Shown here: positions 28,695 through 49,723 of the stretch, piece by piece
How positions within the stretch are numbered: position 1 is the stretch's first letter
How the letters are laid out: each line of letters begins with the position of its first letter
From: Candidatus Vecturithrix granuli
Lineage (GTDB): Bacteria; Moduliflexota; Moduliflexia; Moduliflexales; Moduliflexaceae
Direction of reading: 5' to 3'
Assembly (NCBI GenBank): GCA_000739535.1
Contig: DF820465.1
Coordinates: 63,307-117,109 of the forward strand
Length of the DNA: 53,803 nt
Position numbers and translations under genes: made by a program
The notes under the pieces: model-generated
What the model was told of the DNA's origin: nothing
What the model saw: the letters and a program-made list of their open reading frames with translations, nothing else
The model's database searches: none

Positions 28695-28749
28695 CTCTAC
28701 GAACTACGAACAATCCTTGCTCATGAGAAATCCCTGTAGTTCCCATAAA

Positions 28750-29178
28750 ATGAAACACACGATTCTCTTCATCTGCACCCACAATTCCGCCCGTTCGCAA
28801 ATGGCGGAAGGTTTGGTCAATCATTATTTTGGAGATCGGTGGGAAGCCAAAAGCGCGGGCACAGAAAAAACCGTTGTCAAACCTTTCGCGATTCAAGCGA
28901 TGGCGGAGGCCGGGATTGACATTTCGCACCATACCTCAAAAACCATTGAGGCGTTCAAGGGGCAGCAATTCGATGTGGTGGTGACGGTCTGCGACAGCGC
29001 GAAAGAGAGCTGCCCGTTTTTTCCTGGTAAGAAAGTGGTGCATCAGAGTTTTGTCGATCCTTCGAACGTCGTGGGGACGGACGAAGAAAAGCTTGCAGCG
29101 TTTTGCCGAACTCGCGATGAAATCAAAGCCTGGCTGGATAAACAACTCCCCGTATTGGCAAAGGAATTTGAGGTGTAA
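28750..29178 (+). CDS. arsC: Arsenate reductase, low-molecular-weight phosphatase (thioredoxin-dependent) type
   Basis: A 142-residue ArsC that reduces arsenate to arsenite. FICTHNSARSQMAEG is the CX5R phosphate/arsenate-binding loop with the nucleophilic Cys. VTVCDSAKESCPFFPG supplies the second and third Cys of the thioredoxin-linked triple-Cys relay. WGxxDPS-type residues are replaced by HQSFVDPSNVVGTDEEK. ATG 28750 begins the conserved MKHTILFICTHNSARSQ. It is followed at two bases by the BFD-like gene and then ACR3, so arsenite made here is exported by the neighbour. Confidence 0.95.
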   Translation: MKHTILFICTHNSARSQMAEGLVNHYFGDRWEAKSAGTEKTVVKPFAIQAMAEAGIDISHHTSKTIEAFKGQQFDVVVTVCDSAKESCPFFPGKKVVHQSFVDPSNVVGTDEEKLAAFCRTRDEIKAWLDKQLPVLAKEFEV

Positions 29179-29180
29179 CA

Positions 29181-29381
29181 ATGGTGAACAATGACGAGAT
29201 GATCTGTTATTGCTTTCACTACACCGCTGGCGATATCCGCCGTGATGCAATTGAACACGGGGAGTCAACAATTTTACAACGGATTCTAAACGCAAAACGA
29301 AGCGGCGGATGTCAGTGCGTCGAAAAACATCCGAAGGGGACCTGATGCATTGCCGATGTTCGCCGTGTGCTGAACGAGTAA
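29181..29381 (+). CDS. BFD-like [2Fe-2S] small protein with in-frame UGA (probable selenocysteine)
   Basis: Reading through one TGA (29343-29345, codon 55) gives a 66-residue protein. MICYCFHYTAGDIRRDAIEHG, then GGCQCVEKHPKGT-U-CIADVRRVLNE, matches BFD-like/CopZ-N domains with the pattern CYCF...C.C...NP.G.CCL.DV. The UGA falls exactly on the first Cys of the conserved CC pair, and homology continues on both sides. These domains bind a [2Fe-2S] cluster or a metal and pass electrons or metal ions. It starts two bases after arsC and ends 12 before ACR3. No strong SECIS hairpin was found after the UGA, only weak pairing, so Sec here rests mainly on alignment and on the two stronger cases at 51826 and 52165. 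Confidence 0.7.
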
Positions 29382-29393
29382 AAGGAGGCTGTT

Positions 29394-30467
29394 ATGGCAA
29401 AAGAAAAGAAACTTTCAATTTTTGAAAAATATCTGACGTTATGGGTCTTTTTGTGTATTGTCGGTGGGATTATATTGGGGAGAGTTGCCCCCGACGTCGC
29501 CGTTACATTGGATAACATGTCCATCTATCAGGTCTCGATTCCAATCGCGATCTGTTTGTTTTTCATGATGTATCCCATCATGGTGAAAATTGATTTTGCT
29601 GAAGTGATCAAAGCCGGGAAAACGCCGAAACCAGTATTATTGACTCTGTTTGTCAACTGGGCGATCAAGCCTTTTACGATGTATGCGATTGCCTCGTTTT
29701 TTTTAGGGTATGTGTTTAAAGGGCTTATTCCCGGAACAGAGATCGTTAAAACCGGCGCGACAGTCGAGCTCTGGCGTAGTTACATTTCCGGTACGATTCT
29801 GCTCGGCATAGCGCCCTGTACGGCAATGGTGCTGATGTGGGGGTATCTGGCACGTGGAAACGATGGACTAACGCTGGTGATGGTCGCGATCAATTCTTTA
29901 ACCATGCTCGTGTTGTACGCGCCGCTCGGCGGCTTCTTGCTCGGCGTGAACGCCATGCCGATCCCCTGGCAGACGATTTTATTGTCGGTCGGCATTTACG
30001 TGGCCTTACCCTTAATTGCCGGCTATTTTTCGCGCAAATGGATTATTCAGCACAAAGGGCTAACCTGGTTTGAAACCGAATTCTTGCACGTGTTGACTCC
30101 GATCTCCATCGCAGCCTTGCTGATGACGTTAGTCCTGTTATTCTCGTTTAAAGGCGAGATTATCATGACGCAGCCGCAAGCGATTCTCCTGATAGCGATC
30201 CCGCTGTTTATCCAAACCTGTTTGATTTTTATTCTGGGATATGGATTAGCCAGGGTGTTAAAGTTGACCTATCAGGATGCCGCGCCGGCCGCCATGATCG
30301 GCGCAAGCAACCACTTTGAAGTCGCGATTGCTACCTCGACCATGCTGTTCGGCCTATCCTCAGGCGCGTCGCTGGCAACCGTCGTTGGCGTCTTAATCGA
30401 GGTGCCAGTTATGTTGATGTTGGTGAAATTTTGTCTCAAAACACAACACTGGTTTCAGAAAGCCTAA
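29394..30467 (+). CDS. acr3: ACR3 family arsenite efflux transporter
   Basis: A 357-residue arsenite exporter with ten predicted membrane helices. [24 protein letters not shown] is helix 1; [21 protein letters not shown] holds the essential Cys; [41 protein letters not shown] carries the conserved Glu. ATG 29394 is preceded by aaaggagg. It follows arsC and the BFD-like protein and is followed at 12 bases by a UspA gene. It uses the proton gradient, and no ATPase is required; ArsA at 40768 lies elsewhere in the island. Confidence 0.96.
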
Positions 30468-33897: not shown

Positions 33898-34215
33898 ATG
33901 GATGCTCAGACACGAGATCGCTTTGCGTTACGCGCTAATATCCTCAAGGCGATGGCGCATCCGACGCGCCTGTTTATTGTGGATGCTCTCTCGCATCATG
34001 AACAATGCGTGTTTAAATTGGCTGAACTGATCGAGGCAGACATGTCCACCGTCTCGCGCCATCTGAAAATTTTGAAAGAGGCCGGGGTCATTAAAGATGA
34101 AAAACAGGGAACCCTGGTCTATTATCATCTCAACGTGCCCTGCGTGAAATTTTTGGACTGCCTCGAAATGATTGTACGCAAGACTGTCAACAACACATTA
34201 ACCTTGATGCAATAG
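33898..34215 (+). CDS. ArsR/SmtB family regulator, second copy
   Basis: A 105-residue winged-helix protein very similar to the one at 25614 (ANILKAMAHPTRLFIVDALSHHEQCVFKLAELIEADMSTVSRHLKILKEAGVIKDEKQG). The metal-binding CVCEL is changed to CVFKL, so only one Cys of the alpha-3 pair remains; further Cys at VPCVKFLDC could complete a different site. It follows the thioredoxin-DsbD fusion at 14 bases with aaggagat as ribosome-binding site. It probably regulates this part of the island with altered inducer specificity. Confidence 0.92.
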   Translation: MDAQTRDRFALRANILKAMAHPTRLFIVDALSHHEQCVFKLAELIEADMSTVSRHLKILKEAGVIKDEKQGTLVYYHLNVPCVKFLDCLEMIVRKTVNNTLTLMQ

Positions 34216-34243
34216 GGATGGAGAGAATATTTTTTGTTAATAT

Positions 34244-34272
34244 TTGACGATTTTACCAAATAGCCATATATT
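34244..34272 (+). promoter_or_regulatory. Sigma-70-type promoter
   Basis: TTGACG (34244-34249) and TATATT (34267-34272) are separated by 17 bases. It lies 71 bases before the start at 34344 in an AT-rich gap and after the second arsR, so it marks a new transcription unit. Confidence 0.6.
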
Positions 34273-34343
34273 ATATTCACTCAACGCAAACAGTGATTGA
34301 GATGGGAGCAACCTCTTATTTCAAGCAACAGGAGGATAAGCGT

Positions 34344-34604
34344 ATGAAAATCGTGATTGTCGGGCAGGAATGTCCACTACAAAAAAAGCTTGTTCAAAAT
34401 GTATTGGATGCGTTGCACGAATTACAGCTTGAATGTCAAATAGATGTCGTGCATGAGATGAAAGACATTCTAGAAATTGAAGCCCATCAATTGCTCTTGA
34501 CGCCCGCGCTGATTGTGGACAAGCATATTTTGTGCGAAGGCCATATCTGGGAAAAAGAACATATCAAGCACTTTTTGGCGCATGCATGTTCGAAAAACGC
34601 CTGA
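34344..34604 (+). CDS. Thioredoxin-fold protein with a single active-site cysteine
   Basis: An 86-residue protein beginning MKIVIVGQECPLQKKLVQNVLDAL, the layout of small CXXC thioredoxins such as the one at 28353 but with CPLQ in place of CXXC. The second half ends in LLTPALIVDKHILCEGHIW, with a cis-Pro-like TPAL and an extra Cys. It may bind a metal or act by a monothiol mechanism. ATG 34344 follows aggaggataagcgt; the upstream in-frame ATG 34293 is less well placed. Confidence 0.7.
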   Translation: MKIVIVGQECPLQKKLVQNVLDALHELQLECQIDVVHEMKDILEIEAHQLLLTPALIVDKHILCEGHIWEKEHIKHFLAHACSKNA

Positions 34605-34727
34605 AGAATTAAGATGATAAGGAGATGATCGCGGATGAAGGACAAACAACACCGCCTGTGTCATTGCTGGTGGCGTGGATGGTAATAGCTTAGAGAAACG
34701 TAGTACAAGCGTGGGAAGATTACTATA

Positions 34728-34846
34728 ACAGGACTTACGCACACCCCCCTTTATCCCCCCGCAAGCGGGGGGAAGATGGGTGACGCTCTTCTGTGAGCTT
34801 CCCCTCGTTTACGGGGGGAATGAGGGGGGTATTGCGTAAGTCCTGT
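34728..34846. mobile_element. MITE (acaggacttacg family), intact copy
   Basis: acaggacttacgc at 34728-34740 and gcgtaagtcctgt at 34834-34846 are perfect ends of a 119-base element with two G/C hairpins inside. ATA flanks both sides, perhaps a short target duplication. The copy at 5977-6226 is in the opposite orientation and carries an insertion. Confidence 0.8.
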
Positions 34847-34880
34847 ATAAGATAAATCAGATACTATGGAGGATACTCTT

Positions 34881-35240
34881 ATGAAAAAAGTGATTTTAAT
34901 GTGTACCTGTAGTTTTGCCTGTCCCAGCATGAAAGATTTGAGTTTTCCGGAACTCGCCGAACGCCTGCGCATGGAACTGCCCCATGAATACATGGTGCTG
35001 CATCCGCGCTTATGCGAAGCCAACGGCGAGAATTTAATGGAAGATATCGTCAAAGAGGGCGTGTATTACATCACCCCGGCGTGTAAAGAAGAGAAGCAGC
35101 AAAAACTCTTGCGCGATGGCTTCCAACGGGCCAATGTGCCCATGGAAAAAGGGAAGAATTGGAAGCCAATTTCTGTCTCCTTTAAGAATACGGACCAGGC
35201 ATTTAACGAGATTAAACAGGCGTTAGAGGAGGTTGAGTAA
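34881..35240 (+). CDS. Small HdrA-N-like cysteine protein
   Basis: A 119-residue stand-alone protein. MKKVILMCTCSFACPSMKDLSFPELAERLR and HPRLCEANGENLMEDIVKEGVYYITPACKEE follow the arrangement of the N-terminal Cys domain of HdrA (C.C..., H..LC...G, then ..AC), which binds an Fe-S cluster in heterodisulfide reductases. The flavin domain of HdrA is absent. The two-cluster ferredoxin gene starts two bases after its stop, so the two probably form an electron-transfer pair. ATG 34881 has ggagg nine bases upstream; ATG 34866 would include the ribosome-binding site. Confidence 0.65.
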   Translation: MKKVILMCTCSFACPSMKDLSFPELAERLRMELPHEYMVLHPRLCEANGENLMEDIVKEGVYYITPACKEEKQQKLLRDGFQRANVPMEKGKNWKPISVSFKNTDQAFNEIKQALEEVE

Positions 35241-35241
35241 T

Positions 35242-35517
35242 ATGGCGGGACGAGATTACATGGGCATTGCCAGGGAAAAAATCCCCTGGTTTCCCACCAT
35301 TCAAGAAGACTTATGCACCGGGTGCGGCAGTTGCCTGGAATTTTGCAGCAACAACGTGTTTGCATTAGGCGATGATGGCGTCATGAAAGTTATCAATCCC
35401 TATAACTGTGTGGTAGGCTGTGCATCTTGTGTCAGGGTATGTCCGGTGGAGGCCATTACATTTCCTGATCAACAAGAATTGGTAACCCTCCTTAAAAAAC
35501 TCCGTACAGAACGATAA
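35242..35517 (+). CDS. Two-cluster [4Fe-4S] ferredoxin
   Basis: A 91-residue ferredoxin. Cluster motifs are CTGCGSCLEFC (residues ~26-36) and CVVGCASCVRVCP (~57-69), each a full four-Cys set across the fold, ending EAITFPDQQ. The start IPWFPTIQEDLC is shared with the ferredoxin at 46823 (VEWFPTVDSEKC), so the two are paralogues. It overlaps the transcript of the Hdr-like protein. ATG 35242 follows gaggaggttgagta. A strong hairpin at 35531-35580 closes the unit. Confidence 0.92.
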   Translation: MAGRDYMGIAREKIPWFPTIQEDLCTGCGSCLEFCSNNVFALGDDGVMKVINPYNCVVGCASCVRVCPVEAITFPDQQELVTLLKKLRTER

Positions 35518-35530
35518 GTCAGGGAAATCC

Positions 35531-35580
35531 AGACAGAGGAAATTTGCATTTTCAGTGGTGGGGGCAGGTTTCCTCTGTCT
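35531..35580 (+). terminator. Hairpin after the ferredoxin gene
   Basis: agacagaggaaa (35531-35542) and tttcctctgtct (35569-35580) form a perfect 12-bp stem beginning 14 bases after the ferredoxin stop. No T run follows, so termination is probable but not certain. The AT-rich promoter of the next unit comes ~75 bases later. Confidence 0.5.
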
Positions 35581-35653
35581 TCAAGGGATGTTAGGGAGCG
35601 AAACTATCAGGTGAGCGAAAAACCAGGAATGAAAAAATTTTTTGAAAAAAGAC

Positions 35654-35682
35654 TTGACAAAATAAGATCGAGATATATTATA
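35654..35682 (+). promoter_or_regulatory. Promoter of the CMD-FmdB-YlbF unit, with a flanking dyad
   Basis: TTGACA at 35654-35659 is followed at 16 bases by TATTAT (35676-35681), within agatatattatatgc. An imperfect dyad (tatatgct and gcacatata around caaaa) covers the start-site region at about 35679-35700 and could be an ArsR-type operator. The leader to ATG 35758 ends with gaaggaga. Confidence 0.55.
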
Positions 35683-35757
35683 TGCTCAAAAGCACATATA
35701 AGAATATAATAAATCATCACCCAGGAAATCGAGTTTTTCCGAAGGAGAGTCCACAGC

Positions 35758-35997
35758 ATGCGAGAGATTTTAGATCTGAAAACCAAAGAATTTATTGGGA
35801 TTGCCGCTGCAGTGGCAGGGCACTGTCAGCCCTGTTTTGATTATCATCTGGCCGCAGCCAATAAGGTTGGCATCACCTTAGAAGAGGTTAAGGCAACGAT
35901 TAAATTGGCTCAAGCCGTCAGGCAAGCGGGCAATCAAAATATGGATGTCTATATCCGGAATATCGTGGGAGGAAACGATATGATCGCAGAAGACTGA
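35758..35997 (+). CDS. Carboxymuconolactone decarboxylase (AhpD-like) family protein
   Basis: A 79-residue CMD-domain protein. LKTKEFIGIAAAVAGHCQPCFDYHLAAANKVGITLEEV has the AhpD-type CXXC (CQPC) and following His used in disulfide/peroxidase chemistry. It is shorter than AhpD and matches the single-domain CMD group. It heads a transcript with FmdB, two YlbF proteins and a flavoprotein. Function probably concerns redox of small thiols. Confidence 0.88.
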   Translation: MREILDLKTKEFIGIAAAVAGHCQPCFDYHLAAANKVGITLEEVKATIKLAQAVRQAGNQNMDVYIRNIVGGNDMIAED

Positions 35998-36037: not shown

Positions 36038-36262
36038 ATGCCAACGTATGAATATGTATGCACGCAATGTCAGACGAAGTTTGACGTCTATGCCACTCTG
36101 GCTGAAAAAGAACAGGGCTTACGGCCTGAATGTCCGAAATGCCAGAGCCAGGAAACACGACAGGTTTTTGCGAGTTTTGCAATGATCGGGGGTTCAAAGG
36201 GAGGGACTGATTTCACCATGATGCCGGGCTGCGGACCAGCCGCCGGCCCAGGGTGTTGTTGA
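36038..36262 (+). CDS. FmdB-type zinc ribbon protein with Cys-rich tail
   Basis: A 74-residue protein. MPTYEYVCTQCQTKFDVYATLAEKEQGLRPECPKCQSQETRQVF is the FmdB/CxxC_CxxC_SSSS zinc ribbon (two CXXC pairs). The tail MMPGCGPAAGPGCC adds three Cys. The two YlbF proteins that follow also end in Cys (GGCC and GSC), suggesting a shared metal- or sulfur-handling role. It starts 41 bases after the CMD gene and is followed by the YlbF genes without a gap. Confidence 0.88.
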   Translation: MPTYEYVCTQCQTKFDVYATLAEKEQGLRPECPKCQSQETRQVFASFAMIGGSKGGTDFTMMPGCGPAAGPGCC

Positions 36263-36282
36263 CCAACAGAGGAGGACCACCT

Positions 36283-36663
36283 ATGCAGGAGTATACCAGA
36301 AAGGACGTTATGCAGGCCGCCAAGACCTTTGGTAAGGCGTTAGCCGAAAGTGAGGCGTCTATCGCTCTCACGGCGGCGCAGCACGCCTTGAAAAAGGATC
36401 GGCAGGCGCAAAATTTATTATCCGAATATCAAACTCTTCAACAGGCCGTGCAGACGGCGTTTATGTGGAAGCAGATTCCGCACGCGCAGGATATGGATGC
36501 GCTGCAACGCCTGGAGATCGAAATCAATACGCATCCGACGCTTCGAGCCCTATTTGATGCGCAACAGCAACTCAAAACCACTGTCGAGACCCTGAACACT
36601 GAAATTTCAGATCTGTTAGGCATTGATTTCGCCTCAAATTCCAGGGTGGGCGGGTGTTGTTAA
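36283..36663 (+). CDS. YlbF/YmcA family protein, copy 1, with C-terminal GGCC
   Basis: A 126-residue helical protein of the YlbF/YmcA (Com_YlbF) family: VMQAAKTFGKALAESEASIALTAAQHALKKDRQAQNLLSEYQ and long amphipathic helices. In Bacillus these proteins form an Fe-S-carrying Y-complex acting on RNA processing. The C-terminus RVGGCC provides paired Cys for a cluster or metal. ATG 36283 follows agaggaggaccacct; the upstream in-frame start lies within FmdB. It is the first of a tandem pair with the gene at 36678. Confidence 0.82.
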   Translation: MQEYTRKDVMQAAKTFGKALAESEASIALTAAQHALKKDRQAQNLLSEYQTLQQAVQTAFMWKQIPHAQDMDALQRLEIEINTHPTLRALFDAQQQLKTTVETLNTEISDLLGIDFASNSRVGGCC

Positions 36664-36677
36664 GCAAGGAGGAATGT

Positions 36678-37058
36678 ATGGAACAGTTCAATCAGGAAGC
36701 GATGATTGCACAGGCTAAAACGTTTGCGAAAATCTTAGCCTCCTCTCAGGACTTCCAGAAGTTTTATGCGGCGCAGGAGCGCTTTCATCAGGATCAGGAA
36801 GCCCGCGCATTGGTGGGAACTTTTCAGGAGAAACAGCGCAAATTTCAAGAAGCGCGGATGAGAGGGACAACGCTTCATGATGATGACCTGGACGAACTTC
36901 GACGCTTGCAGCAAGACGTGCAACGGAATCAAACGATTATGGCCTGGGCCAAAGCACAGCAAGAGGTTATTCGTCTGATTCAAAGCGCAAATCAAACCAT
37001 TTCGGCCGCAGCCGGGTTTGATTTTGGGCAGACGTTATCTGGCAATGGAAGTTGTTAA
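36678..37058 (+). CDS. YlbF/YmcA family protein, copy 2, with C-terminal Cys
   Basis: A 126-residue paralogue of the preceding protein, the same length (EAMIAQAKTFAKILASSQDFQKFYAAQERFHQDQEARALVGTFQEKQ). It ends FGQTLSGNGSC. The equal length and neighbour position suggest a heterodimer or a duplicated pair. ATG 36678 has aaggaggaatgt upstream. The CoaC-like flavoprotein begins 26 bases after its stop. Confidence 0.82.
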   Translation: MEQFNQEAMIAQAKTFAKILASSQDFQKFYAAQERFHQDQEARALVGTFQEKQRKFQEARMRGTTLHDDDLDELRRLQQDVQRNQTIMAWAKAQQEVIRLIQSANQTISAAAGFDFGQTLSGNGSC

Positions 37059-37084
37059 GACCGGCTGAGGAAAGAGAGAACGAT

Positions 37085-37651
37085 ATGCTGCTTGGCAAAA
37101 CAGTTGTCCTGGGCGTGAGCGGAGGGATTGCGGCCTGGCAGACGCCAGAAATTATCGGTCAATTGCAAACGATCATGGTTAATGTCTATTGTATTATGAC
37201 AAAGGCCGCCGCCGAGTTTATTACCCCATTAACGTTGCAAGTGGCCTCGCAAAACCCGGTAGCCGTGGATCAATTTGAACGCCGAAAAGAATGGAATATC
37301 GCGCATATTGCGCTGGCAGATGTCGCCGACCTGTTGTTGATTGCGCCTGCGACGGCCAATATTATCGCCAAAATTGCTCACGGCATCGCGGATGATTTGC
37401 TTTCGACGACAGTCTTAGCAACAACTGCACCTGTGGTGATCGCTCCGGCGATGAATCCCAAAATGTATGCCAATCCAGCGACGCAGGCAAACCTTGCCCG
37501 GGTACGCGAGTTCGGCTATCATATTGTCGAGCCGGAATATGGCAAAACCGCATGCGGCACCGAAGGCGTGGGTCGGTTGGCTAGAATCCCGGTGATTATC
37601 AATGCGGTGACCGAATTGTTAAGCGTTCAACGACCGATCATTATGCAGTAG
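37085..37651 (+). CDS. HFCD-family flavoprotein (CoaC/phosphopantothenoylcysteine decarboxylase-like)
   Basis: A 188-residue FMN-binding HFCD protein. VVLGVSGGIAAWQTPEII is the flavin loop; the active-site His is in WNIAHIALADVADLLLIAPATANIIAKIAHGIADDLLS; and VVIAPAMNPKMYANPATQANL is the PXMNXXM motif. TACGTEGVGRL is the substrate-clamp region. These enzymes oxidatively decarboxylate a C-terminal or peptidyl-type Cys. CoaB is not fused to it, so it may act on another thiol, possibly the Cys-ending YlbF or FmdB neighbours, which is speculative. ATG 37085 begins the domain. Confidence 0.85.
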   Translation: MLLGKTVVLGVSGGIAAWQTPEIIGQLQTIMVNVYCIMTKAAAEFITPLTLQVASQNPVAVDQFERRKEWNIAHIALADVADLLLIAPATANIIAKIAHGIADDLLSTTVLATTAPVVIAPAMNPKMYANPATQANLARVREFGYHIVEPEYGKTACGTEGVGRLARIPVIINAVTELLSVQRPIIMQ

Positions 37652-37673
37652 AAGTCTGGAGAAGGAGGCAACG

Positions 37674-37739
37674 ATGGAACCCTATCCACTTTTTCGCAAG
37701 GAAAATATCCCTGCCTATGTTGTTGTTATGAGCGCATAG
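37674..37739 (+). CDS. Short ORF with a perfect ribosome-binding site, unknown
   Basis: A 21-codon frame (MEPYPLFRKENIPAYVVVMSA) is preceded by gaaggaggcaacg, one of the best ribosome-binding sites in the window. It ends with TAG 37737-37739. It may be a truncated gene, a leader or a micro-protein. No family is recognised. It lies between the flavoprotein and moeA. Confidence 0.35.
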   Translation: MEPYPLFRKENIPAYVVVMSA

Positions 37740-37805
37740 AGCGTTGTGTCTGTGCGACAAGGGGTTCAGTAATGTATCAACCGATGATGGAGGTCTGGGA
37801 AATTT

Positions 37806-39089
37806 ATGATTGCTGTTCAGGAAGCCCTGGAAAGGATTCTGACACATACTCATAGACTGTCTGTAGAAGAACAATGTCTTGGCGACTGTCTGTATCAGGC
37901 ATTGGCAGAGGATATTATTGCCGAAAGAGATATCCCGCCTGTCAGTAATTCTGCGGTAGATGGTTATGGACTTCGTGCAGAAGATACTCTGATCGTGGAT
38001 TCTTCCGACCATATCGTTGCGTTGAAAGTCGTGGATATGGTACCGGCAGGCGCAATATCACAGACAGTGATCGAGCCGGGCCAGGCCGTACAGATTATGA
38101 CCGGCGCCTCGATTCCACAAGGTGTCAATGCCGTGGTGATGGTAGAAGATACGGAACGATCGGCGGACATGGTATTCGTGACAAAGCGGCTCAATCAAGG
38201 AGAAAATATCCGCGCTGCCGGCGAAGATGTGCGACAAGGAGAAGTGATTCTCAAGGAGGGAACTCTCCTGAAACCGGCCTGTATCGGGATGTTAGCAGCC
38301 TTAGGAAAAAGTGCGGTAAACGTGGTGAGAAGAGCAAACGTCGGAATTGTTTCGACTGGCGATGAATTAATTGAATTAGGAGAACCCGTGACAGATGGCC
38401 GCATTTATGATTACAATGCCTATTCATTAGCGGCATTGATCCGAAAATATTACGGAATTCCTGTGTCGTATGGCATTGCGAGAGATGACCGGCAAGACTT
38501 AGCCGCGAAGATTTCTACGGCCTTGATGCAATCTGATATTGTGATGATATCAGGCGGAGTATCTATGGGAGACCGGGATTATGTGAAAGAGGTGTTGGTG
38601 GAGTTAGGCGCTCACATCCATTTTTGGCGAGTCGCCTGTAAGCCGGGCAGACCTTTAGTGTTTGCGACGTGGAACAATCGCCTGATTTTTGGCTTGCCGG
38701 GCAATCCTGTCTCCGTCATGGTTGCGTTCGAAGAGTTTGTCCGTCCCGCTATGTTGAAGGCCATGGGCTATTCCTCTTTACAGAAGATAGCGATCTGGGC
38801 GGAGTTGAAAGAAGATATTCATAAAAAACCGGGAAGAACCCATTTTATGCGCGGGAAATTGAAGCGTCAAGGCGAACGATTCTTTGTATCGTTTACGGGT
38901 GAACAAGGATCGGGAATTCTTTCATCAATGGTCCGGGGCAATTGTCTTATCCACGTTCCGCAACACGTGAGTTCCTTATCCAAAGGGAACAAGGTGTTAG
39001 TCCAGATATTGGATGTTGAAGAGGTGCCTCAGGAAGACGATCAGAGCCTGCAAGAAGAGAACATAAAGTTGATGCCAGGAGGGACATAA
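37806..39089 (+). CDS. moeA: Molybdopterin molybdenumtransferase
   Basis: A 427-residue MoeA that inserts molybdate (or tungstate) into adenylylated molybdopterin. PPVSNSAVDGYGLRAEDT is the conserved N-terminal signature; QIMTGASIPQGVNAVVMVEDT, then VGIVSTGDELIELGEPVTDGRIYDYNAY and SGGVSMGDRDYVKEVL form the MPT-binding region. GLPGNPVSVMVAFEEFVRPAML and a domain IV tail follow. Length is typical (~410). It implies that molybdenum or tungsten enzymes are present. The start at 37806 follows ggaggtctgggaattt. It sits with the flavoprotein and MIP18 genes. Confidence 0.95.
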   Translation: MIAVQEALERILTHTHRLSVEEQCLGDCLYQALAEDIIAERDIPPVSNSAVDGYGLRAEDTLIVDSSDHIVALKVVDMVPAGAISQTVIEPGQAVQIMTGASIPQGVNAVVMVEDTERSADMVFVTKRLNQGENIRAAGEDVRQGEVILKEGTLLKPACIGMLAALGKSAVNVVRRANVGIVSTGDELIELGEPVTDGRIYDYNAYSLAALIRKYYGIPVSYGIARDDRQDLAAKISTALMQSDIVMISGGVSMGDRDYVKEVLVELGAHIHFWRVACKPGRPLVFATWNNRLIFGLPGNPVSVMVAFEEFVRPAMLKAMGYSSLQKIAIWAELKEDIHKKPGRTHFMRGKLKRQGERFFVSFTGEQGSGILSSMVRGNCLIHVPQHVSSLSKGNKVLVQILDVEEVPQEDDQSLQEENIKLMPGGT

Positions 39090-39136
39090 TGACTCCCGTA
39101 ATGGGCATGGACGAATAAACTCTGGGAGAGACAAAA

Positions 39137-39376
39137 ATGGTAACGAAAGATCAGGTCATGCAAGCTTTAAACGAGGTGATTGACCCTGAGATAGGTGTAA
39201 GCCTCGTGGAGATGAATCTTATAAAAGACGTGACACTCGAAGGTGATATGGTGAAGGTCAAGATGACCTTAACCACCCCTGGCTGCCCGCTTGCTAATAT
39301 GCTTGTCGGCGAGGTAAAGAGCAAAGTTGAAAGTTTAGCAGGTGTGAAAGAGGCAGAAGTAGAGTTGGTTTTTTGA
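39137..39376 (+). CDS. MIP18 family (DUF59) Fe-S assembly protein
   Basis: A 79-residue MIP18/PaaD/SufT-like protein (VMQALNEVIDPEIGVSLVEMNLIKDVTLEGDMVKVKMTLTTPGCPLANM). The Cys in TTPGCPLANM is the reactive residue of the family, which helps load Fe-S clusters on target proteins. ATG 39137 follows gagagac. It lies 47 bases after moeA and before a small methionine-rich protein. With the SufC-SufB pair 4.4 kb downstream it contributes to Fe-S cluster supply. Confidence 0.92.
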   Translation: MVTKDQVMQALNEVIDPEIGVSLVEMNLIKDVTLEGDMVKVKMTLTTPGCPLANMLVGEVKSKVESLAGVKEAEVELVF

Positions 39377-39724: not shown

Positions 39725-40162
39725 ATGGAGAAATCGGTCAATATATTCAAAGCCTTATCAGATAATACCCGGCTCAGAATCGTTTGGCTGCTGAAACGAG
39801 CCGGAACAGCCTTGTGTGTCTGCGAAATCATGGACGCACTGCATGAAAGTCAGTACAATATCTCCCGGCATTTGAAAGAATTGAGGATCGCCGGGGTCGT
39901 CCAGGATCAGAAGCAGGGCCGCTGGAATTTTTACACCCTGGCAGATTCATCCAGCCAGTTTGAACAATTGGTTTTGCAAGCCGTCGCCGCCCTGACAAGC
40001 GACGCGCTTGAGTTGGATTATGCGCGCTTACAACGGCGTTTAGCGCTCAGAGAACACGATACCTGCGTTATCGGCGTTGATAGTGATCTCTGGCGGACCA
40101 TTATTACCGAGCAATTCACCCCTGACGAAAGCGAAAAGCAGGGAACGCTCAATGGGCGGTAA
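39725..40162 (+). CDS. arsR: ArsR family regulator, third copy
   Basis: A 145-residue ArsR-type repressor. NIFKALSDNTRLRIVWLLKRAGTALCVCEIMDALHESQYNISRHLKELRIAGVVQDQKQGRW is the fold, and LCVCEI holds the canonical As(III)-binding Cys pair. A longer C-terminal tail follows than in the copies at 25614 and 33898. It is directly upstream of arsD and arsA, so it is the expected regulator of that unit. ATG 39725 follows gggagggcatt. Confidence 0.94.
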   Translation: MEKSVNIFKALSDNTRLRIVWLLKRAGTALCVCEIMDALHESQYNISRHLKELRIAGVVQDQKQGRWNFYTLADSSSQFEQLVLQAVAALTSDALELDYARLQRRLALREHDTCVIGVDSDLWRTIITEQFTPDESEKQGTLNGR

Positions 40163-40176
40163 TTATGATACCGCCA

Positions 40177-40286
40177 GGAACAAGAAGGAGAGACAAACAT
40201 GAATACATCACCCCCATTGTTCGCCATAATAGGCATAGAGGTCTCCGAGGGGAACAAGAAGGAGAGACAAACATGAATACATCACC
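40177..40286 (+). repeat. 36-base direct repeat duplicating the arsD start region
   Basis: ggaacaagaaggagagacaa, continuing acatgaatacatcacc, occurs at 40177-40212 and again at 40251-40286, offset by 74 bases. Each copy contains the same ribosome-binding site and start codon. The first copy opens a 25-codon frame and the second is the true start of arsD. Confidence 0.9.
40199..40276 (+). CDS. Mini-ORF upstream of and coupled to arsD
   Basis: A 25-codon frame (MNTSPPLFAIIGIEVSEGNK, then KERQT) uses the first copy of the duplicated start region. Its TGA overlaps the arsD ATG (ATGA at 40273-40276), so ribosomes finishing here could start arsD. The peptide has no recognised family. It is likely a by-product of the 74-base tandem duplication or a coupling leader. 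Confidence 0.4.
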   Translation: MNTSPPLFAIIGIEVSEGNKKERQT

Positions 40287-40599
40287 TACGACGATTGAAA
40301 TTTATGATCCACCCATGTGCTGCCCCGGAGGAATGTGCGGGCCAACGATTGATCCCGCGCTGCTTGCCGTTGATGACGCGATCTTGCGGATCAAAAAAAC
40401 GCAGAACGGCAACGTGACAATTGTCCGGTATTCGTTAACCCAGCAGAGCGGTAAATTTATGCAACACCCGGGGGTGTTCGAATTATTAAAAACCCAGGGG
40501 GTGGCCGCGCTGCCGGTGACGACGGTGAATGGAAAAATTGTCAAGCAACAGGAATATCCTTCGTACGAACAACTCAGTAACTGGAGTCAAGGAGTATAA
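40273..40599 (+). CDS. arsD: ArsD arsenite metallochaperone
   Basis: A 108-residue ArsD. IEIYDPPMCCPGGMCGP gives the Cys pair plus third Cys (Cys16, Cys17, Cys22 by count) matching Cys12/13/18 of the E. coli plasmid protein that hands As(III) to ArsA. VVALP-type cis-Pro is seen as GVAALPVTTVNGK in the thioredoxin-like fold. It starts 110 bases after arsR and ends 168 before arsA. ATG 40273 is supported by the SD and the conserved start. Confidence 0.93.
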   Translation: MNTSPTTIEIYDPPMCCPGGMCGPTIDPALLAVDDAILRIKKTQNGNVTIVRYSLTQQSGKFMQHPGVFELLKTQGVAALPVTTVNGKIVKQQEYPSYEQLSNWSQGV

Positions 40600-40767: not shown

Positions 40768-42645
40768 ATGAATACAATGAATGCCACTCAGACGCAATAT
40801 TTGTTTTTTTCCGGCAAGGGCGGCGTGGGCAAAACCACCATGGCCTGCGCCACCGCGGTGCACCATGCAGAACAGGGCCTCAATACCCTGATTATCACTA
40901 CCGATCCAGCCTCCAATCTGGCCGATGTGTTTGAAACAGAGATCGGCCATAAGATCACGCCCCTGGGCATTCCGCGCCTGTGGGGCATGGAAATTGATCC
41001 GGACAAAGCCACCGAAGAATATCGCGAGCGCGTGCTGGGACCAATGCGGGTCGTGATGCCGGACGACATTATTAAGGTATTGGAAGAACAATTCCGATCT
41101 CCCTGCACCACTGAGATCGCCTCTTTCGATCGGTTTGTGGATTTTATGGTGGCGGAGCAATCGGGGGCAGGCATGGCGTATGATGTCGTCATTTTTGATA
41201 CCGCGCCGACCGGACACACTATTCGTCTGCTGGAGTTGCCGGTGGATTGGAGCAAACATATTGAAGAGAGCGCCAAAGGCAGCGGCAATACCTGTCTTGG
41301 CCCGGTGGCCTCCATTCAGGATCATAAACACAAATATGACGAAGCCACCCGCCTGCTCGGCGATCCGACGCGTACAACGTTCCTGTTCGTGTTGCAGCCC
41401 GACGGGACATCGCTCTATGAAACTAAACGGTCGTCGCAAGAGTTGCAGACCATCGGCGTCAAAAACATCGAATTGATCGTCAATGGGGTGTTGCCGCAGG
41501 ATGTCTGTGAGCATCCGTTCTTTGCGACGCGGTATGCGATGCAACAGCAATATCTCGCCCGGATTAAAACTGTGTTCCCGGTACCGCAGCGCACCATGTT
41601 CTTGCGCGATGGTGAGATTAAAGGTATCCCGGCACTCCAGCATATTGCCCGTGATTTATTTAGTTCCAATGGCAATACGCCATCATATCAATTGTCGAAC
41701 GCCTTCGAGGTCTCCGAACATGAGGCCGAAGTCCCGGTCGCAGAACCAATTCTGGAATTGCTGCACCCCGATGGGCAGACGAAAACGATCTTTTTTACCG
41801 GTAAAGGCGGCGTGGGCAAAACCACGATTTCGTGCGCTGCGGCTTTTCAGCTTGCTGCGCGCGGCTACAAAACCCTGTTGCTGACGACCGATCCTGCATC
41901 GCACATCGGGGAAGTGCTCGGACAAGCGGTTGGAGATCAGATTCAGCCAGTTGCAGGCATCCCCAACCTGTTTGCCACAATTATTGACCAGGAACAAGCT
42001 GTCAAAGAATACAAGCGACGCATCCTGGCGGACGCGCAGGCCAAATACTCGGAAGATATGCTCATCGCAATTCGCGAAGAGTTGGAATCGCCTTGCACTG
42101 AAGAAATGGCCGCATTCGACAAATTCATGCACTATGTCGAAAGTGAGGCCTTTGAGGTGGTCGTGTTCGATACCGCCCCGACCGGGCATACACTGCGCCT
42201 GTTGGAACTGCCGTTCGATTACGGCGATCAGGTCAGCCTGATGGTTACAACCACGGAAGAAAGCCGCGCGGCGAAATCCGAAACCCAACAACGGTTTGAC
42301 CGGATTATTACGCGCCTGAAAGATCCGCGGCGCTCGGTTTTTGCGTTTGTCGTGTACCCCGAATCCACCCCGGTTGTTGAAGCCTATCGCGCCATGCTCG
42401 ATCTCAAAGATGCCGGTATTCCCACACAACTGGTGATTGCGAATCAGGTGCTGGCGCCGGAGTATTGCGTAAATGCTTACTTTACCAAGCGGCGCACGAT
42501 GCAGGCAAAATACTTGCGCGAGATCAAACAGCGCTTTCAGATGCCAATGGCGATTATGCCGCTATTGGATACCGAAATCAGAGGGCTGGACATGGTGAAA
42601 CAGGCCGCGGCCCAGTTGTTCCGGTCGGAGGCCATGCCAAATTGA
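40768..42645 (+). CDS. arsA: ArsA arsenite-stimulated ATPase (two-domain)
   Basis: The 625-residue protein is a tandem duplicate of the ArsA/GET3 ATPase. Both halves carry a deviant Walker A (FSGKGGVGKTTMACA near residue 15 and FTGKGGVGKTTISCA near 347), the metal-binding DTAPTGHT signature (DTAPTGHTIRLLELP, DTAPTGHTLRLLELP) and Cys-containing PCTTEIASFD / PCTEEMAAFD. It takes As(III) from ArsD and energises an ArsB/ACR3-type efflux channel; the nearest exporters are the ACR3 at 29394 and the split permease at 45485. Start 40768 is chosen; no strong ribosome-binding site is seen. Confidence 0.95.
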   Translation: MNTMNATQTQYLFFSGKGGVGKTTMACATAVHHAEQGLNTLIITTDPASNLADVFETEIGHKITPLGIPRLWGMEIDPDKATEEYRERVLGPMRVVMPDDIIKVLEEQFRSPCTTEIASFDRFVDFMVAEQSGAGMAYDVVIFDTAPTGHTIRLLELPVDWSKHIEESAKGSGNTCLGPVASIQDHKHKYDEATRLLGDPTRTTFLFVLQPDGTSLYETKRSSQELQTIGVKNIELIVNGVLPQDVCEHPFFATRYAMQQQYLARIKTVFPVPQRTMFLRDGEIKGIPALQHIARDLFSSNGNTPSYQLSNAFEVSEHEAEVPVAEPILELLHPDGQTKTIFFTGKGGVGKTTISCAAAFQLAARGYKTLLLTTDPASHIGEVLGQAVGDQIQPVAGIPNLFATIIDQEQAVKEYKRRILADAQAKYSEDMLIAIREELESPCTEEMAAFDKFMHYVESEAFEVVVFDTAPTGHTLRLLELPFDYGDQVSLMVTTTEESRAAKSETQQRFDRIITRLKDPRRSVFAFVVYPESTPVVEAYRAMLDLKDAGIPTQLVIANQVLAPEYCVNAYFTKRRTMQAKYLREIKQRFQMPMAIMPLLDTEIRGLDMVKQAAAQLFRSEAMPN

Positions 42646-43045: not shown

Positions 43046-43795
43046 ATGCAGGCCCTTGTTGAATTTCCGATCAAGAGATCGTATCATGATGCCCCGGTGT
43101 TAGTGGCGGTGTTCGCGCATCCGGATGATGAAACGTTTTCAGCCGGGGGCGTCCTGGCAGGCCACGCGCTTGCCGGGTGGTCTGTCAAGCTGGTCTGCGC
43201 CACTGCCGGAGAACGGGCGACCAATGGCCGAGGCGCTCTGAGTGATCATGAGTTCAAAACGCTTCGCCTTCACGAGTTGACCATGGCGATTGAGGCGTTG
43301 GGGGTTGATGCGCTCTTTCTGTTAGACTGGGGCGACGGTGACATACCACAGCGCAATGATCAGGAATCTGTGGCTGAACTGCTGAAGATTATGAAACAGA
43401 CTGCGCCGGTTGTGGTGATCACATTTGGTCCGGACGGAATCTCCGGGCACCCTGATCATGTCGCCCTTCATCGTTTGACGACAGAGGCTTTCCGACAATA
43501 TGCCCGGAGTGCGCATCCAAACGACATATCGCCGCAGCTCTATTACGTTACCGCATCGGCGGCGATTCCATTGTGCTGCAAGGACAGAGAGAACACCCCG
43601 GCCTCGCTCCCGCCAACCGTTCGGATGGATATTCAGGCGGGCTGGGAGCGTAAAAGGGCTGCAATGGAAGCGTACGTCAGTCAGCAGCATATATTACAAT
43701 CACTGCAAAACAATCCTCCTGGCTGGCAAAGCAGGGAAGAACTGTTCCACCGGGCATATCCGCCGGTAATTGAGGAGAACAAGAAGAATGCTTGA
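43046..43795 (+). CDS. PIG-L/LmbE family deacetylase
   Basis: A 249-residue zinc-dependent de-N-acetylase. VLVAVFAHPDDETFSAGGVLAGHALAG carries the HPDDE zinc site, and GHPDHVALHRLTTEAF holds the second zinc His. Members remove acetyl groups from GlcNAc-linked compounds, including in bacillithiol and mycothiol synthesis (BshB/MshB). Given the arsenic-thiol context, a role in making a low-molecular-weight thiol is plausible. The stop overlaps the sufC start by eight bases, implying translational coupling. Confidence 0.88.
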   Translation: MQALVEFPIKRSYHDAPVLVAVFAHPDDETFSAGGVLAGHALAGWSVKLVCATAGERATNGRGALSDHEFKTLRLHELTMAIEALGVDALFLLDWGDGDIPQRNDQESVAELLKIMKQTAPVVVITFGPDGISGHPDHVALHRLTTEAFRQYARSAHPNDISPQLYYVTASAAIPLCCKDRENTPASLPPTVRMDIQAGWERKRAAMEAYVSQQHILQSLQNNPPGWQSREELFHRAYPPVIEENKKNA

Positions 43796-44525
43796 ATTAC
43801 AACATATCGCTGTGCAAAAAAATGGCACGCCGATCTTAATGCAAGTGGATCTCCGTATTGCGGCGCAGGAAATTCACAGCATCCTGGGCCGCAACGGCAC
43901 CGGTAAAACCACGCTGGCCTACAGCTTGATGGGTTTGCCGGATTATGCGCTCAACGCTGGCGACATCCTTTGGGAAGGTCGTTCGATCACCAACCTTTCA
44001 GTGGCGGAGCGTGCCAAATTGGGCATCACGCTGGCCTGGCAGGAACCGGCCCGCTTCGAAGGACTGAGCGTGGCTGAATATCTGCATTTAGGACAACAGG
44101 GGAAAAAAGCCGCGTTTTCACCGGCGCAATGTCTGGACCAGGTGGGCTTAGACCCAACTGCTTATCTCGCCAGAACGGTAGATGCAACCTTAAGCGGCGG
44201 CGAACGCAAACGGATTGAACTGGCGGCCGTGCTGGCCATGCAGCCGCGCCTGGCGATTCTGGACGAACCGGATTCCGGGATTGACGCCCTGTCGCTGGAC
44301 TTTATCAAAGGAGTCATCCGTACCTTAGTGCGCGAAGGCGCGTCTATTCTGCTGATTACGCATCACGAAGAGGTCGCAGCTATGGCCGATCGCGCATCCG
44401 TCTTATGCGCCGGCCGCATTTTAAAAACCGGTCTGCCGGAAGAAGCCACCCGGTTGTTTCGGAATCATTGCCAGCCTTGCCGACATGTCAATGAACCCGA
44501 GGAGGAATTGATCCACTATGTTTGA
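43788..44525 (+). CDS. sufC: SufC-type Fe-S assembly ATPase
   Basis: A 245-residue ABC ATPase of the SufC type. Walker A is ILGRNGTGKTTLAYSLMG; the ABC signature is DATLSGGERKRIELAA; Walker B is RLAILDEPDSGIDALS with the family's ITHHEE. It starts MLELQHIAVQK, overlapping the LmbE stop. The SufB-like gene overlaps its end by eight bases. Only SufC and one SufB-like protein are present, with no SufD, SufS or SufU, so this is the minimal Sms/Suf type. It builds Fe-S clusters together with SufB. Confidence 0.92.
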   Translation: MLELQHIAVQKNGTPILMQVDLRIAAQEIHSILGRNGTGKTTLAYSLMGLPDYALNAGDILWEGRSITNLSVAERAKLGITLAWQEPARFEGLSVAEYLHLGQQGKKAAFSPAQCLDQVGLDPTAYLARTVDATLSGGERKRIELAAVLAMQPRLAILDEPDSGIDALSLDFIKGVIRTLVREGASILLITHHEEVAAMADRASVLCAGRILKTGLPEEATRLFRNHCQPCRHVNEPEEELIHYV

Positions 44526-45468
44526 TTATGCCCAGGAATTCGAACTCTTAGCCCGCGCGTACGAACAAAGCGGCGGCAATCCGCAGGAATTGCAGAACCA
44601 GCAACAAGGTTTGCTGGTGGTGAGCGGCAACCACATCCTGGGGAAACAAGACATTCCCGGGCTGGTGATCGAGGGGGAGAGTCTGTCCGATGGCGCGCAG
44701 GCCAAAATTCTCGTCAAAGCTCATACGCACATCGCGCAGCCGGTGCATCTCTGTTTTGGCGTGCTGCCGGTCGAAGGCGTCCAGCGCATTGTCGCAGATT
44801 TTATCCTTGAAGAAGACGCTCGCGCCACATTCCTCGCGCACTGCATGTTTCCGAATGCGGTCAAGGTGCAACATATCATGACCGGAACGATCAACATCGG
44901 CTCGCAGGCACGCATGGAATATAGCGAAACACACTATCACGGCGAACTTGGCGGCGTTGAGGTGCTGCCCACGATCTCCGCGAATATCGGTCCTGGCGGC
45001 GTCTATATCAGCACATTTAAGCTTATTGACGGGGCGGCCGGCAAAGTGCGACTGGATTACGACGCTGCGGTGCAGGAACGCGGCGTGGTGGAACTGTACG
45101 CCAAAATTTACGGCAAACACCTGGATGATATTACGGTGCGGGAATCCATTGCGCTGAACGGCGACAACGCACGCGGACTGGCGAAGAGCCGGATTGTTTT
45201 GCGCGAATGCGCTAAAGCCGAGGTCTTAGGGGAAGTGGTCGGCAACGGTCCGCACACGCGCGGACATGTGGATTGCATGGAAATTGTGCAGGGCAAACAT
45301 GCCAAAGCTTCGGCCCTGCCCTGTTTGAAGGTGGTGGATGACACCGCTAAACTCACCCATGAAGCCGCGATCGGCAGCGTGGATAAACGACAGGTCGAAA
45401 CCCTGATGGCGCGTGGGCTGTCAGAACAAGAAGCCGTTGATGTGATTGTGAAAGGAATTTTGAAATAA
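44518..45468 (+). CDS. sufB: SufB/SufD-type Fe-S scaffold (minimal Suf)
   Basis: A 316-residue SufB/SufD-fold protein of beta-helix repeats (HLCFGVLPVEGVQRIVADFILEEDARATFLAHCMFP, and HYHGELGGVEVLPTISANIGPGGVYIS). It is shorter than SufB (~480) and matches the small archaeal/anaerobic SmsB. Conserved Cys lie in CMFP, KGxxx-type RECAKAEV, and VDCMEIV. The final segment TLMARGLSEQEAVDVIVKGIL is the family C-terminus. It overlaps sufC and, through the LmbE overlap, forms a three-gene coupled unit. Confidence 0.9.
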   Translation: MFDYAQEFELLARAYEQSGGNPQELQNQQQGLLVVSGNHILGKQDIPGLVIEGESLSDGAQAKILVKAHTHIAQPVHLCFGVLPVEGVQRIVADFILEEDARATFLAHCMFPNAVKVQHIMTGTINIGSQARMEYSETHYHGELGGVEVLPTISANIGPGGVYISTFKLIDGAAGKVRLDYDAAVQERGVVELYAKIYGKHLDDITVRESIALNGDNARGLAKSRIVLRECAKAEVLGEVVGNGPHTRGHVDCMEIVQGKHAKASALPCLKVVDDTAKLTHEAAIGSVDKRQVETLMARGLSEQEAVDVIVKGILK

Positions 45469-48254: not shown

Positions 48255-49130
48255 ATGACACACAAGGATATTTTGTTCAAAGCCGGTCGAATTATGAGCA
48301 GTACATTGATTGTTGTCGTGATGGTGGGTTTGTTCATGCCTCACAATGCAGGAGCAGCGCAGCCACCGATTCTGTACCTCTTTTGGGGGGAGGGCTGTCC
48401 GCATTGTGAAAAAGAAAAGACCTTTTTGCAGGACTTTCACCAGCAGTATCCAGAAGTGGAACTCCGGCTCTTTGAAACCTGGCAGAATCGGGAATTTGCG
48501 AAATTGGCTGACGCCGTGCGTCAGACCTACCAGATCAAAGGCGCCAGCGTCCCGCTGACCGTGATGGGGGATTGGTATCTGGTCGGGTTCAGTTTATCCG
48601 GAAATTACAGCCAGCAGATTATCTCCCAGACGGAAACCTGTTTGCAGCAGGGCTGCCAGGACGTCCTGGACAAACTCGGCCCTTCGGCGATTGTGGGCCG
48701 CATCCGTTCAGAGGCTGCTGCCAATGCGCCCAACGGGTGGGAACGCTATCCGGCGGTGAGTGCTCCATCCGCGACAGGCGATGCGCACAAGAAAATCGTC
48801 GTGTTCTATTTTCACGGCGTGGAAGACTGCCCTGTCTGTTTCCAGATCGAAGAATTGACCCATCAGGCTTTGGAAGCCGGATTTCACGGTGAATTGGAAC
48901 AGGGGCGCGTGGAATTTCAGCGTATTAATGCCGAACTTCCGGAAAACCGACAGTTGGTCGAAAAATATCAGTTGACCGCCCGCGCGGTTATCGTGTCAGA
49001 AAGAGCGCAGGGGCAGGAAATTCGCTGGAAATCGCTGGAAAAAATCTGGGAATTTCTCAACAACGAACCGGCGTTTATACAGTATGTGCAAACCGAAATT
49101 ACGAATTATTTAACTGACAGCGGAGAATGA
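48255..49130 (+). CDS. arsF: Exported two-domain thioredoxin/ArsF-like protein, copy 1
   Basis: A 291-residue exported protein. A signal peptide (residues ~15-34) is followed by a thioredoxin domain with CPHC (Cys48, Cys51) and cis-Pro loop ASVPLTVMGDWYLVGF. A second thioredoxin-like domain (~170-291) has KKIVVFYFHGVEDCPVCFQIEELTHQAL (Cys192, Cys195) and ends EIRWKSLEKIWEFL. The second domain matches the ArsF family linked with nitro-arsenical reduction and ArsG efflux. ATG 48255 follows aggagaaa. It probably reduces or shuttles electrons to an arsenical or thiol in the periplasm. Confidence 0.82.
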   Translation: MTHKDILFKAGRIMSSTLIVVVMVGLFMPHNAGAAQPPILYLFWGEGCPHCEKEKTFLQDFHQQYPEVELRLFETWQNREFAKLADAVRQTYQIKGASVPLTVMGDWYLVGFSLSGNYSQQIISQTETCLQQGCQDVLDKLGPSAIVGRIRSEAAANAPNGWERYPAVSAPSATGDAHKKIVVFYFHGVEDCPVCFQIEELTHQALEAGFHGELEQGRVEFQRINAELPENRQLVEKYQLTARAVIVSERAQGQEIRWKSLEKIWEFLNNEPAFIQYVQTEITNYLTDSGE

Positions 49131-49134
49131 GTGT

Positions 49135-49710
49135 ATGTCCAAAAAAAAGAAACGCATGAAGACGCCAGCAGCGCCGCCGCAGCCCACACCACAATCCGAT
49201 CCGGCTGCGTCCGTGAACGCAAAACGCCGGACGATCATCATCGCCGTTCTCCTGATCGGGCTGCTTGGGCTTATGAGCGCAGGAGTGATCGTCAAGTTGT
49301 CGCAGAATACAGTGGTATCTGCTCTACAGCCTGATGCGCCGCAGGCATTTGCAATGCCCGAGAATCAACCGCACTCTCCCACAAAGAAGATTGTGGTCTA
49401 TTATTTTCATGGAACTGCGCGCTGCTCTTCCTGTCAGACCATTGAAGAACTCACCCATTTTGCGGTAGCTGATGGCTTTCAATCGGAACTCAAAGAGGGC
49501 TCCCTTGAATTTCATGCTATTAACGCTGAAACTCCTGAAAATCGGCATTTTATTCAAGAGTACCGGCTCTATACGAAATCGGTCATTGTGTCGGCTGTTG
49601 TGAACGGCAAAGAGATGCGCTGGAAAAACCTGGAGAAAATCTGGGAACTGTACTATGACCAAAAAGCCTTTGTGGATTATATCCAGCAAGAAATCCGGGC
49701 GTATTTGTAA
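49135..49710 (+). CDS. arsF: Membrane-anchored ArsF-like protein, copy 2 (single domain)
   Basis: A 191-residue protein: basic Pro-rich N-terminus (MSKKKKRMKTPAAPPQPT), one transmembrane helix (RRTIIIAVLLIGLLGLMSAG), then the ArsF-type domain KKIVVYYFHGTARCSSCQTIEELTHFAVADGFQSEL (Cys97, Cys100) ending GKEMRWKNLEKIWEL. It has the second domain of copies 1 and 3 but no first thioredoxin domain. It starts four bases after copy 1. The anchored single-domain form may be the terminal acceptor or partner of the two-domain proteins. Confidence 0.82.
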   Translation: MSKKKKRMKTPAAPPQPTPQSDPAASVNAKRRTIIIAVLLIGLLGLMSAGVIVKLSQNTVVSALQPDAPQAFAMPENQPHSPTKKIVVYYFHGTARCSSCQTIEELTHFAVADGFQSELKEGSLEFHAINAETPENRHFIQEYRLYTKSVIVSAVVNGKEMRWKNLEKIWELYYDQKAFVDYIQQEIRAYL

Positions 49711-49723
49711 GGAGGCGCGCTTA

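Follow-up and report, generated by a model that had tools for sequence, protein, structure and literature searches.

C-terminal Cys decarboxylation is known from ribosomally synthesized and post-translationally modified peptides (RiPPs) and from the coenzyme A (CoA) pathway. The flavoprotein AtHal3a works in two steps, with His90, Asn142 and Met145 serving oxidation and decarboxylation and Cys175 reducing the intermediate (PMC9604783). C-terminal Cys residues can also serve as ligands: C141 of RicA and C134/C146 of RicF, both YlbF-family paralogues, ligate a [4Fe-4S] cluster at the interface with RicT (PMC6751060). Family models further exist for two haloarchaeal "CC-star" proteins, HcsL (NF041416) and HcsS (NF041415); our literature search found no description of halo-CC-star proteins, of YlbF with arsenic, or of CoaC or FmdB in ars operons. 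We focus here on a stretch of 53,803 nucleotides from Candidatus Vecturithrix granuli (contig DF820465.1; hereafter, the window), in which one block of genes encodes an FmdB-type zinc ribbon protein, two YlbF-family proteins (YlbF-a and YlbF-b) and a CoaC-like flavoprotein.

Three adjoining Cys-tailed proteins in an arsenic island

An initial annotation, made from the letters of the window alone, joined FmdB, YlbF-a, YlbF-b, the flavoprotein, MoeA and MIP18 into one module. Open reading frames (ORFs) and family matches place the six genes in that order, all on the + strand (Table 1). The first four are tightly packed: 20, 14 and 26 nucleotides separate them, and Shine-Dalgarno-like GGAGGA, AAGGAGG and GAGGAAAG stand upstream of the starts; the gaps from the flavoprotein gene to MoeA and from MoeA to MIP18 are 154 and 47 nucleotides. 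Gene content and family models show that the block is part of an arsenic-resistance island, just upstream of arsR-arsD-arsA, and not an isolated cofactor cluster, a setting that the annotation had not anticipated. We regard the arsenic link of the module as very probable.

FmdB has a CxxC...CxxC zinc ribbon and scores 50 bits with TIGR02605 (cut-off 31.3). The tails as first read, GPGCC in FmdB, GGCC in YlbF-a and GSC in YlbF-b, are exact (all tails here run up to the stop codon), while calling them Cys-rich was loose: they are short tails that end in Cys. Among the longest non-overlapping ORFs of at least 150 amino acids (950 ORFs from 80 loci), Cys is the last residue in 1.3% and CC closes none, so three adjoining Cys tails go beyond chance; of the 30 genes of the island, no others than these three neighbours have a terminal Cys. 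None of 28 other FmdB proteins ends in Cys, against 3/3 in the related clusters, and the FmdB tail CGP[TA]AGPGCC is common to the window and two related loci, L065 and L107.

These loci were found when the window flavoprotein was searched against about 85,000 genomes; two close relatives emerged, in L065 (78% identity) and L107 (71%), and other matches were mostly full-length CoaBC. L065, from another lineage, reads ArsR-ArsP-Usp-thioredoxin-like-FmdB(CGPTAGPGCC)-YlbFa(SGCC)-YlbFb(RGPC)-CoaC, and L107, from an Omnitrophota metagenome-assembled genome (MAG), reads ArsP-thioredoxin-like-FmdB(CGPTAGPGCC)-CoaC, with CoaC frameshifted in the assembly. A third block, L056 from a Chloroflexota MAG, reads arsRDA-YlbFa-YlbFb-CoaC, its CoaC being 53% identical to that of the window. 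The neighbourhood is thus conserved, which supports the annotation, except for two of its genes: no MoeA or MIP18 was seen next to the block in L065, L107 or L056, which rules them out as core members. L065 has instead, after CoaC, a xanthine dehydrogenase-type molybdoenzyme large subunit, a NifU/IscU scaffold, SufC, SufB, a second such subunit and a gene that we ourselves read from its sequence as arsenite-methyltransferase-like. Shorter CoaC ORFs were also seen in L116, L122, L123 and L126, with a separate CoaB nearby, and in L098, L101, L125 and L138, with no CoaB on the stretch fetched. Across 297 genomes from the phylum to which G782 belongs, the pair of G782 itself gave the only YlbF matches, which suggests that the island reached G782 by horizontal transfer; no FmdB relative was found on plasmids. 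Bin contamination does not explain the window island, since its contig is 930 kb long and carries a RicT homologue resembling that of the family member G001. Just upstream of FmdB in L065 (5530-5865) and L107 (1209-1532) lies a thioredoxin-like protein with CGPxxxCCGPIGQ, a further vicinal-Cys protein.

The YlbF pair and its ars-linked relatives

The YlbF profile hits the solved 2pih, 6prh and 6prk (RicA, YmcA, RicF), and the window proteins have the terminal Cys. YlbF-a and YlbF-b score 66.4 and 76.1 bits with the HcsL model, under its curated cut-off of 140. Their HcsL-type features are the arsDA neighbourhood, with arsD-arsA ~3 kb downstream of the pair, and a CC terminus on YlbF-a only, YlbF-b ending in SC. 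Since this model matches at E 1e-8 in only 16 of 385 genomes drawn from across the bacteria, YlbF proteins of the HcsL type are uncommon. On all four haloarchaeal plasmids examined, hcsL-hcsS directly follows arsD-arsA, with tails GGGCC and CC; the laboratory haloarchaeon Haloferax volcanii likewise gives a match to the HcsL model. Similar orders occur in genomes that neighbour genes and the tree let us read as Chloroflexota: arsD-arsA-YlbFa(GGGCCG)-YlbFb(NSCC) in G204, arsD-arsA-YlbFa(AGCCG)-YlbFb(QSC) in G639 and arsR-arsD-arsA-YlbFa(GPGCC)-YlbFb(GPGSC)-CoaC in G386, the order given above for L056. A truncated YlbF fragment follows arsA in G596, a pair or single YlbF adjoins ArsP/ArsR/ArsE-type genes in G410, G630 and G617, and G486 reads sufC-sufB-YlbFa-YlbFb. 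Profile and gene order place the Cys-tailed pair on a branch of the YlbF/YmcA (RicF/RicA) family that is linked to ars genes, and the haloarchaeal "CC-star" proteins gain bacterial relatives in the same arsDA context, even without the chemistry considered below.

Terminal Cys is conserved in the tails of related clusters. All nine FmdB and YlbF tails encoded beside CoaCs of the window type end exactly in Cys, against 3/10 bacterial YlbF tails without an adjoining CoaC (Fisher p 0.003, with p values here only indicative, the sequences being related and non-independent). A CSGCSGCGM-like Cys tail is also seen in lone YlbF proteins at L030, L031 and L032, which lie away from ars genes in G300, G161 and G013, small genomes that belong to a single family.

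A flavoprotein clade that has lost the Lys of CoaC

In the tree, the CoaCs of the window, L065, L107 and L056 form one clade (support 100/97), apart from housekeeping CoaBC. G782 and G386 hold separate full-length CoaBC proteins (413 and 415 amino acids), which fall elsewhere in the tree, and no CoaB was found in L065, L107 or L056; in its relatives, the flavoprotein is thus unlinked to CoaB. Tails lost in orthologues, or a tie to CoaB in relatives, would have told against the annotation; neither was seen. Tree and gene context set these flavoproteins apart as a standalone clade that branched from CoaC and has Cys-tailed FmdB or YlbF genes, or both, alongside. In the host genome (G000, 93.8% complete) and in G001, no CoaB (PF04127) was found, and no CoaC besides the window copy; the relatives G002 and G003 have normal CoaBC.

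The window residues H74, N124, M127 and C157 correspond to H90, N142, M145 and C175 of AtHal3a, and the CoaC set (His, PXMN..M motif, redox Cys) is present. The L065 copy keeps all four, the readable frame of L107 still shows His, Asn, Met and Cys, and in the L056 member both motifs are incomplete, without their Asn and Cys. We gave up the idea that this loss signals altered chemistry, because CoaBC of M. smegmatis has the same PAMH and no Cys.

The clade differs from housekeeping CoaC at position 19, the Lys of the motif G-[GS]-[IV]-A-[AC]-x-K (GGIAAxK context). Lys is lost in 4/4 members (Gln, Gln, Leu and Tyr), and is found in 107 of 108 housekeeping copies, the other having Arg (79 Lys and one Arg in 80 rows, then 28/28 further copies), a comparison that includes copies standing alone beside CoaB. 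Position 19 is Lys in the solved 4'-phosphopantothenoylcysteine (PPC) decarboxylases 6tgv, 1qzu, 1e20/1mvl and 6eoa, whereas the peptide decarboxylases 7cfu (TvaF), 6jls, 1p3y, 3qjg and 1g63 carry Ala, Gly, Asn or Ile; the peptide enzymes, MrsD and EpiD among them, have no Lys there, the EpiD column being read from a short alignment. The equivalent residue of AtHal3a is Lys34, which we take to contact the phosphate. The clade further shows Leu155 changed to Thr/Ser and position 80, which is often basic, changed to a hydrophobic residue. The annotation had linked the flavoprotein, of the HFCD (homo-oligomeric flavin-containing Cys decarboxylase) family, to relatives that decarboxylate C-terminal Cys or similar thiols; the lack of the PPC-marking Lys speaks for this link, and a sequence much closer to CoaC than to EpiD or CypD speaks against it.

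A candidate thiol module and its alternatives

The explanation that we favour, with a confidence somewhat short of even, is that the block is an accessory thiol module of the arsenic island, the tails of which would bind As(III) or an Fe-S/metal centre and the flavoprotein of which would be a re-purposed Cys decarboxylase. Ligand binding by the Cys tails is likely, by analogy with the Ric proteins. In the pairing that we infer, YlbF-a (CC) and YlbF-b (C) would come together like RicA and RicF, uniting two plus one thiolates, and FmdB, with its strictly kept CGPxAGPGCC tail, would be a third carrier. A three-thiolate As(III) site would hand arsenite to the ArsD/ArsA pump, the alternative being an Fe-S/metal centre; arsenic is favoured as ligand because of the arsDA context, and Fe-S stays in play because SufBC and MIP18 are nearby.

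That the flavoprotein acts on the tails of FmdB, YlbF-a and YlbF-b is a guess that we would put between a minority view and an even one. It is proposed because the flavoprotein keeps the decarboxylation residues, no longer bears the mark of the CoA substrate and has neighbours that all (9/9) end in Cys. The enzyme would oxidatively decarboxylate the terminal Cys of one or more tails; as it keeps a counterpart of the redox Cys, it would then turn the intermediate into a thiol by reduction, after the two-step mechanism of AtHal3a. Loss of the carboxylate would leave a cysteamine-like or enethiol end and alter metal(loid) binding. In its fullest form, in which a non-RiPP, CoaC-derived enzyme strips the C-terminal carboxylate of FmdB/YlbF carriers and the dithiol/enethiol tail holds As(III) or nucleates a metal-sulfur centre, the proposal is doubtful; if true, it would extend C-terminal Cys decarboxylation to protein carriers and would explain the Cys-ending YlbF and FmdB proteins of arsenic islands. 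A RiPP reading of the cluster was ruled out, the Cys-ending proteins being full zinc ribbon and YlbF domains and not precursor peptides.

Several observations weigh against the explanation that we favour. First of all, the flavoprotein scores 210 bits as CoaC and 30 bits as the peptide decarboxylase CypD, and the role that we assign to Lys19 is tentative. Second, Cys tails need no CoaC, because they occur without an adjacent one in haloarchaea, where HcsL and HcsS end in CC, and in Chloroflexota, where G204 and G639 have Cys tails yet a single PF02441 gene each, their CoaBC; with the haloarchaeal tails counted in, the tail correlation falls to p 0.06. Third, with no CoaBC seen in the host genome, the window copy may have a role in the CoA pathway. 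Finally, the clade has four known members, one frameshifted in its assembly and one on a 7-kb contig.

It is unlikely, in our view, that the YlbF pair is instead a Ric-like Fe-S complex that works with RicT in RNA processing under arsenic stress, with FmdB and CoaC incidental. The profile matches to RicA, YmcA and RicF are consistent with such a complex, as are the Fe-S-ligating C-terminal Cys residues of RicA and RicF (PMC6751060), SufBC and MIP18 nearby, and the presence in G000, G782, G386 and G204 of a PSP1/RicT homologue whose CX4CCX~30CX4CC motif is complete. RicT is, however, encoded in G001 without YlbF and was not found in G639 despite its YlbF pair, the steady position after arsD-arsA favours arsenic, and the tails are shorter than that of RicF.

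The absence of any other PF02441 gene from the host genome, together with the four catalytic residues and TIGR00521/CoaC as best model, would also fit an ordinary 4'-phosphopantothenoylcysteine decarboxylase that serves CoA synthesis and lies in the island by chance. This is improbable: with no CoaB in the host genome or G001, its substrate would be missing; the gene has relatives in genomes that encode a complete CoaBC at another site, the clade is separate, and Lys19 is lost in 4/4 members. We give similarly little credence to a flavoprotein that decarboxylates a small Cys-capped thiol, bacillithiol-like and made with the PIG-L/BshB-like deacetylase, to yield a low-molecular-weight thiol against arsenic. 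The deacetylase gene just after the window arsA, a PIG-L match between arsR and arsD in L062 and the loss of the basic residue, which suits a non-phosphorylated substrate, argue for it; L065, L107 and L056 gave no PIG-L match (L107 and L056 being short contigs), and the Cys-ending neighbours would be left unaccounted for. A catalytically idle flavoprotein, partnering the tails in flavin redox or as a scaffold like the moonlighting yeast Hal3, is very improbable, given the residues kept in the window, L065 and L107; the L056 member without the motif Asn and Cys points towards it but is no proof of inactivity, M. smegmatis CoaBC having the same features there.

The surrounding island

The window ArsA fits the haloarchaeal model NF041417 (665 bits, cut-off 800) better than the general TIGR04291 (502 bits, cut-off 650), below both cut-offs. 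A PIG-L/BshB-like deacetylase is seen in arsenic clusters both adjoining arsA, as in the window, and between arsR and arsD (L062:10056-10391). The sufC gene and a short sufB-like gene (316-337 amino acids) recur with the YlbF pair in the window, L065 (11099-12785) and L057 (8885-10701), and in L057 stand directly in front of YlbF-a/b. Two xanthine dehydrogenase-type molybdenum subunits lie inside the arsenic island of L065 (7528-9777 and 13126-15426), where no small Fe-S/FAD partner subunit was recognised, and the window MoeA occupies the corresponding place. Three consecutive thioredoxin-like proteins are encoded at 48255-50688 of the window, the first matching the ArsF family model NF040494.

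Table 1. Genes of the block and of the arsenic island around it (window coordinates).
Feature	Position	Strand	Evidence
Arsenate reductase and Acr3 arsenite efflux protein	28711..30467	+	TIGR02691, TIGR00832
Upstream island genes: ArsR, ArsE-like thioredoxin, Cys-containing protein without assigned function, ferredoxin, AhpD/CMD-like protein	33898..35997	+	Family models
FmdB-type zinc ribbon protein, tail CGPAAGPGCC	36038..36262	+	PF09723 E 1e-11, TIGR02605
YlbF-a, tail GGCC	36283..36663	+	PF06133 E 4e-17; NF041416 HcsL E 2.8e-18, under curated cut-off
YlbF-b, tail NGSC	36678..37058	+	PF06133 E 1e-19; NF041416 HcsL E 2.7e-21, under curated cut-off
Standalone CoaC-like HFCD flavoprotein; H74, N124, M127 and C157 kept, Lys19 replaced by Gln	37085..37651	+	PF02441 E 4e-33, TIGR00521 210 bits
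MoeA-like molybdopterin molybdotransferase, neighbour outside the conserved core	37806..39089	+	Family matches
MIP18/SufT-type Fe-S assembly domain protein (FeS_assembly_P), neighbour	39137..39376	+	PF01883 E 1e-24
ArsR/SmtB regulator	39725..40162	+	NF033788
ArsD arsenite metallochaperone	40270..40599	+	NF033727, above cut-off
Two-domain ArsA ATPase, best model haloarchaeal ArsA	40768..42645	+	NF041417, TIGR04291
PIG-L/BshB-like deacetylase	43046..43795	+	PF02585 E 2e-31; TIGR04000
sufC and short sufB-like pair	43770..45468	+	TIGR01978, NF052511

Comparison with known systems

With CoaC and CoaBC, the window flavoprotein shares the HFCD fold family and the His, Asn, Met and Cys catalytic set. 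The clade, on the other hand, is standalone, separate and without CoaB, has Lys19 replaced and occurs as an extra copy in genomes with CoaBC. EpiD, MrsD, TvaF and CypD resemble it in that an HFCD enzyme stands beside a Cys-ending candidate substrate and that the compared structures have no PPC-type Lys. They differ in their low sequence similarity and in acting on RiPP precursors, whereas the candidate substrates here are folded zinc ribbon and helical proteins, and the window enzyme keeps the CoaC-type Cys157.

HcsL and HcsS are alike in being YlbF-family proteins that end in CC and are encoded with arsD-arsA, and the window ArsA best fits haloarchaeal ArsA. The window, however, is bacterial and encodes two full-length YlbF proteins (in place of one long and one short) with FmdB and CoaC added, and its pair scores 66-76 bits against the cut-off of 140. 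RicA and RicF (YmcA and YlbF) of B. subtilis are likewise two YlbF-family paralogues with C-terminal Cys; the window pair, unlike them, lies in an ars island, has very short CC and C tails and has no RicT gene in its cluster. A link between the ars-linked YlbF tails and the tails by which Ric proteins ligate Fe-S is open to testing.

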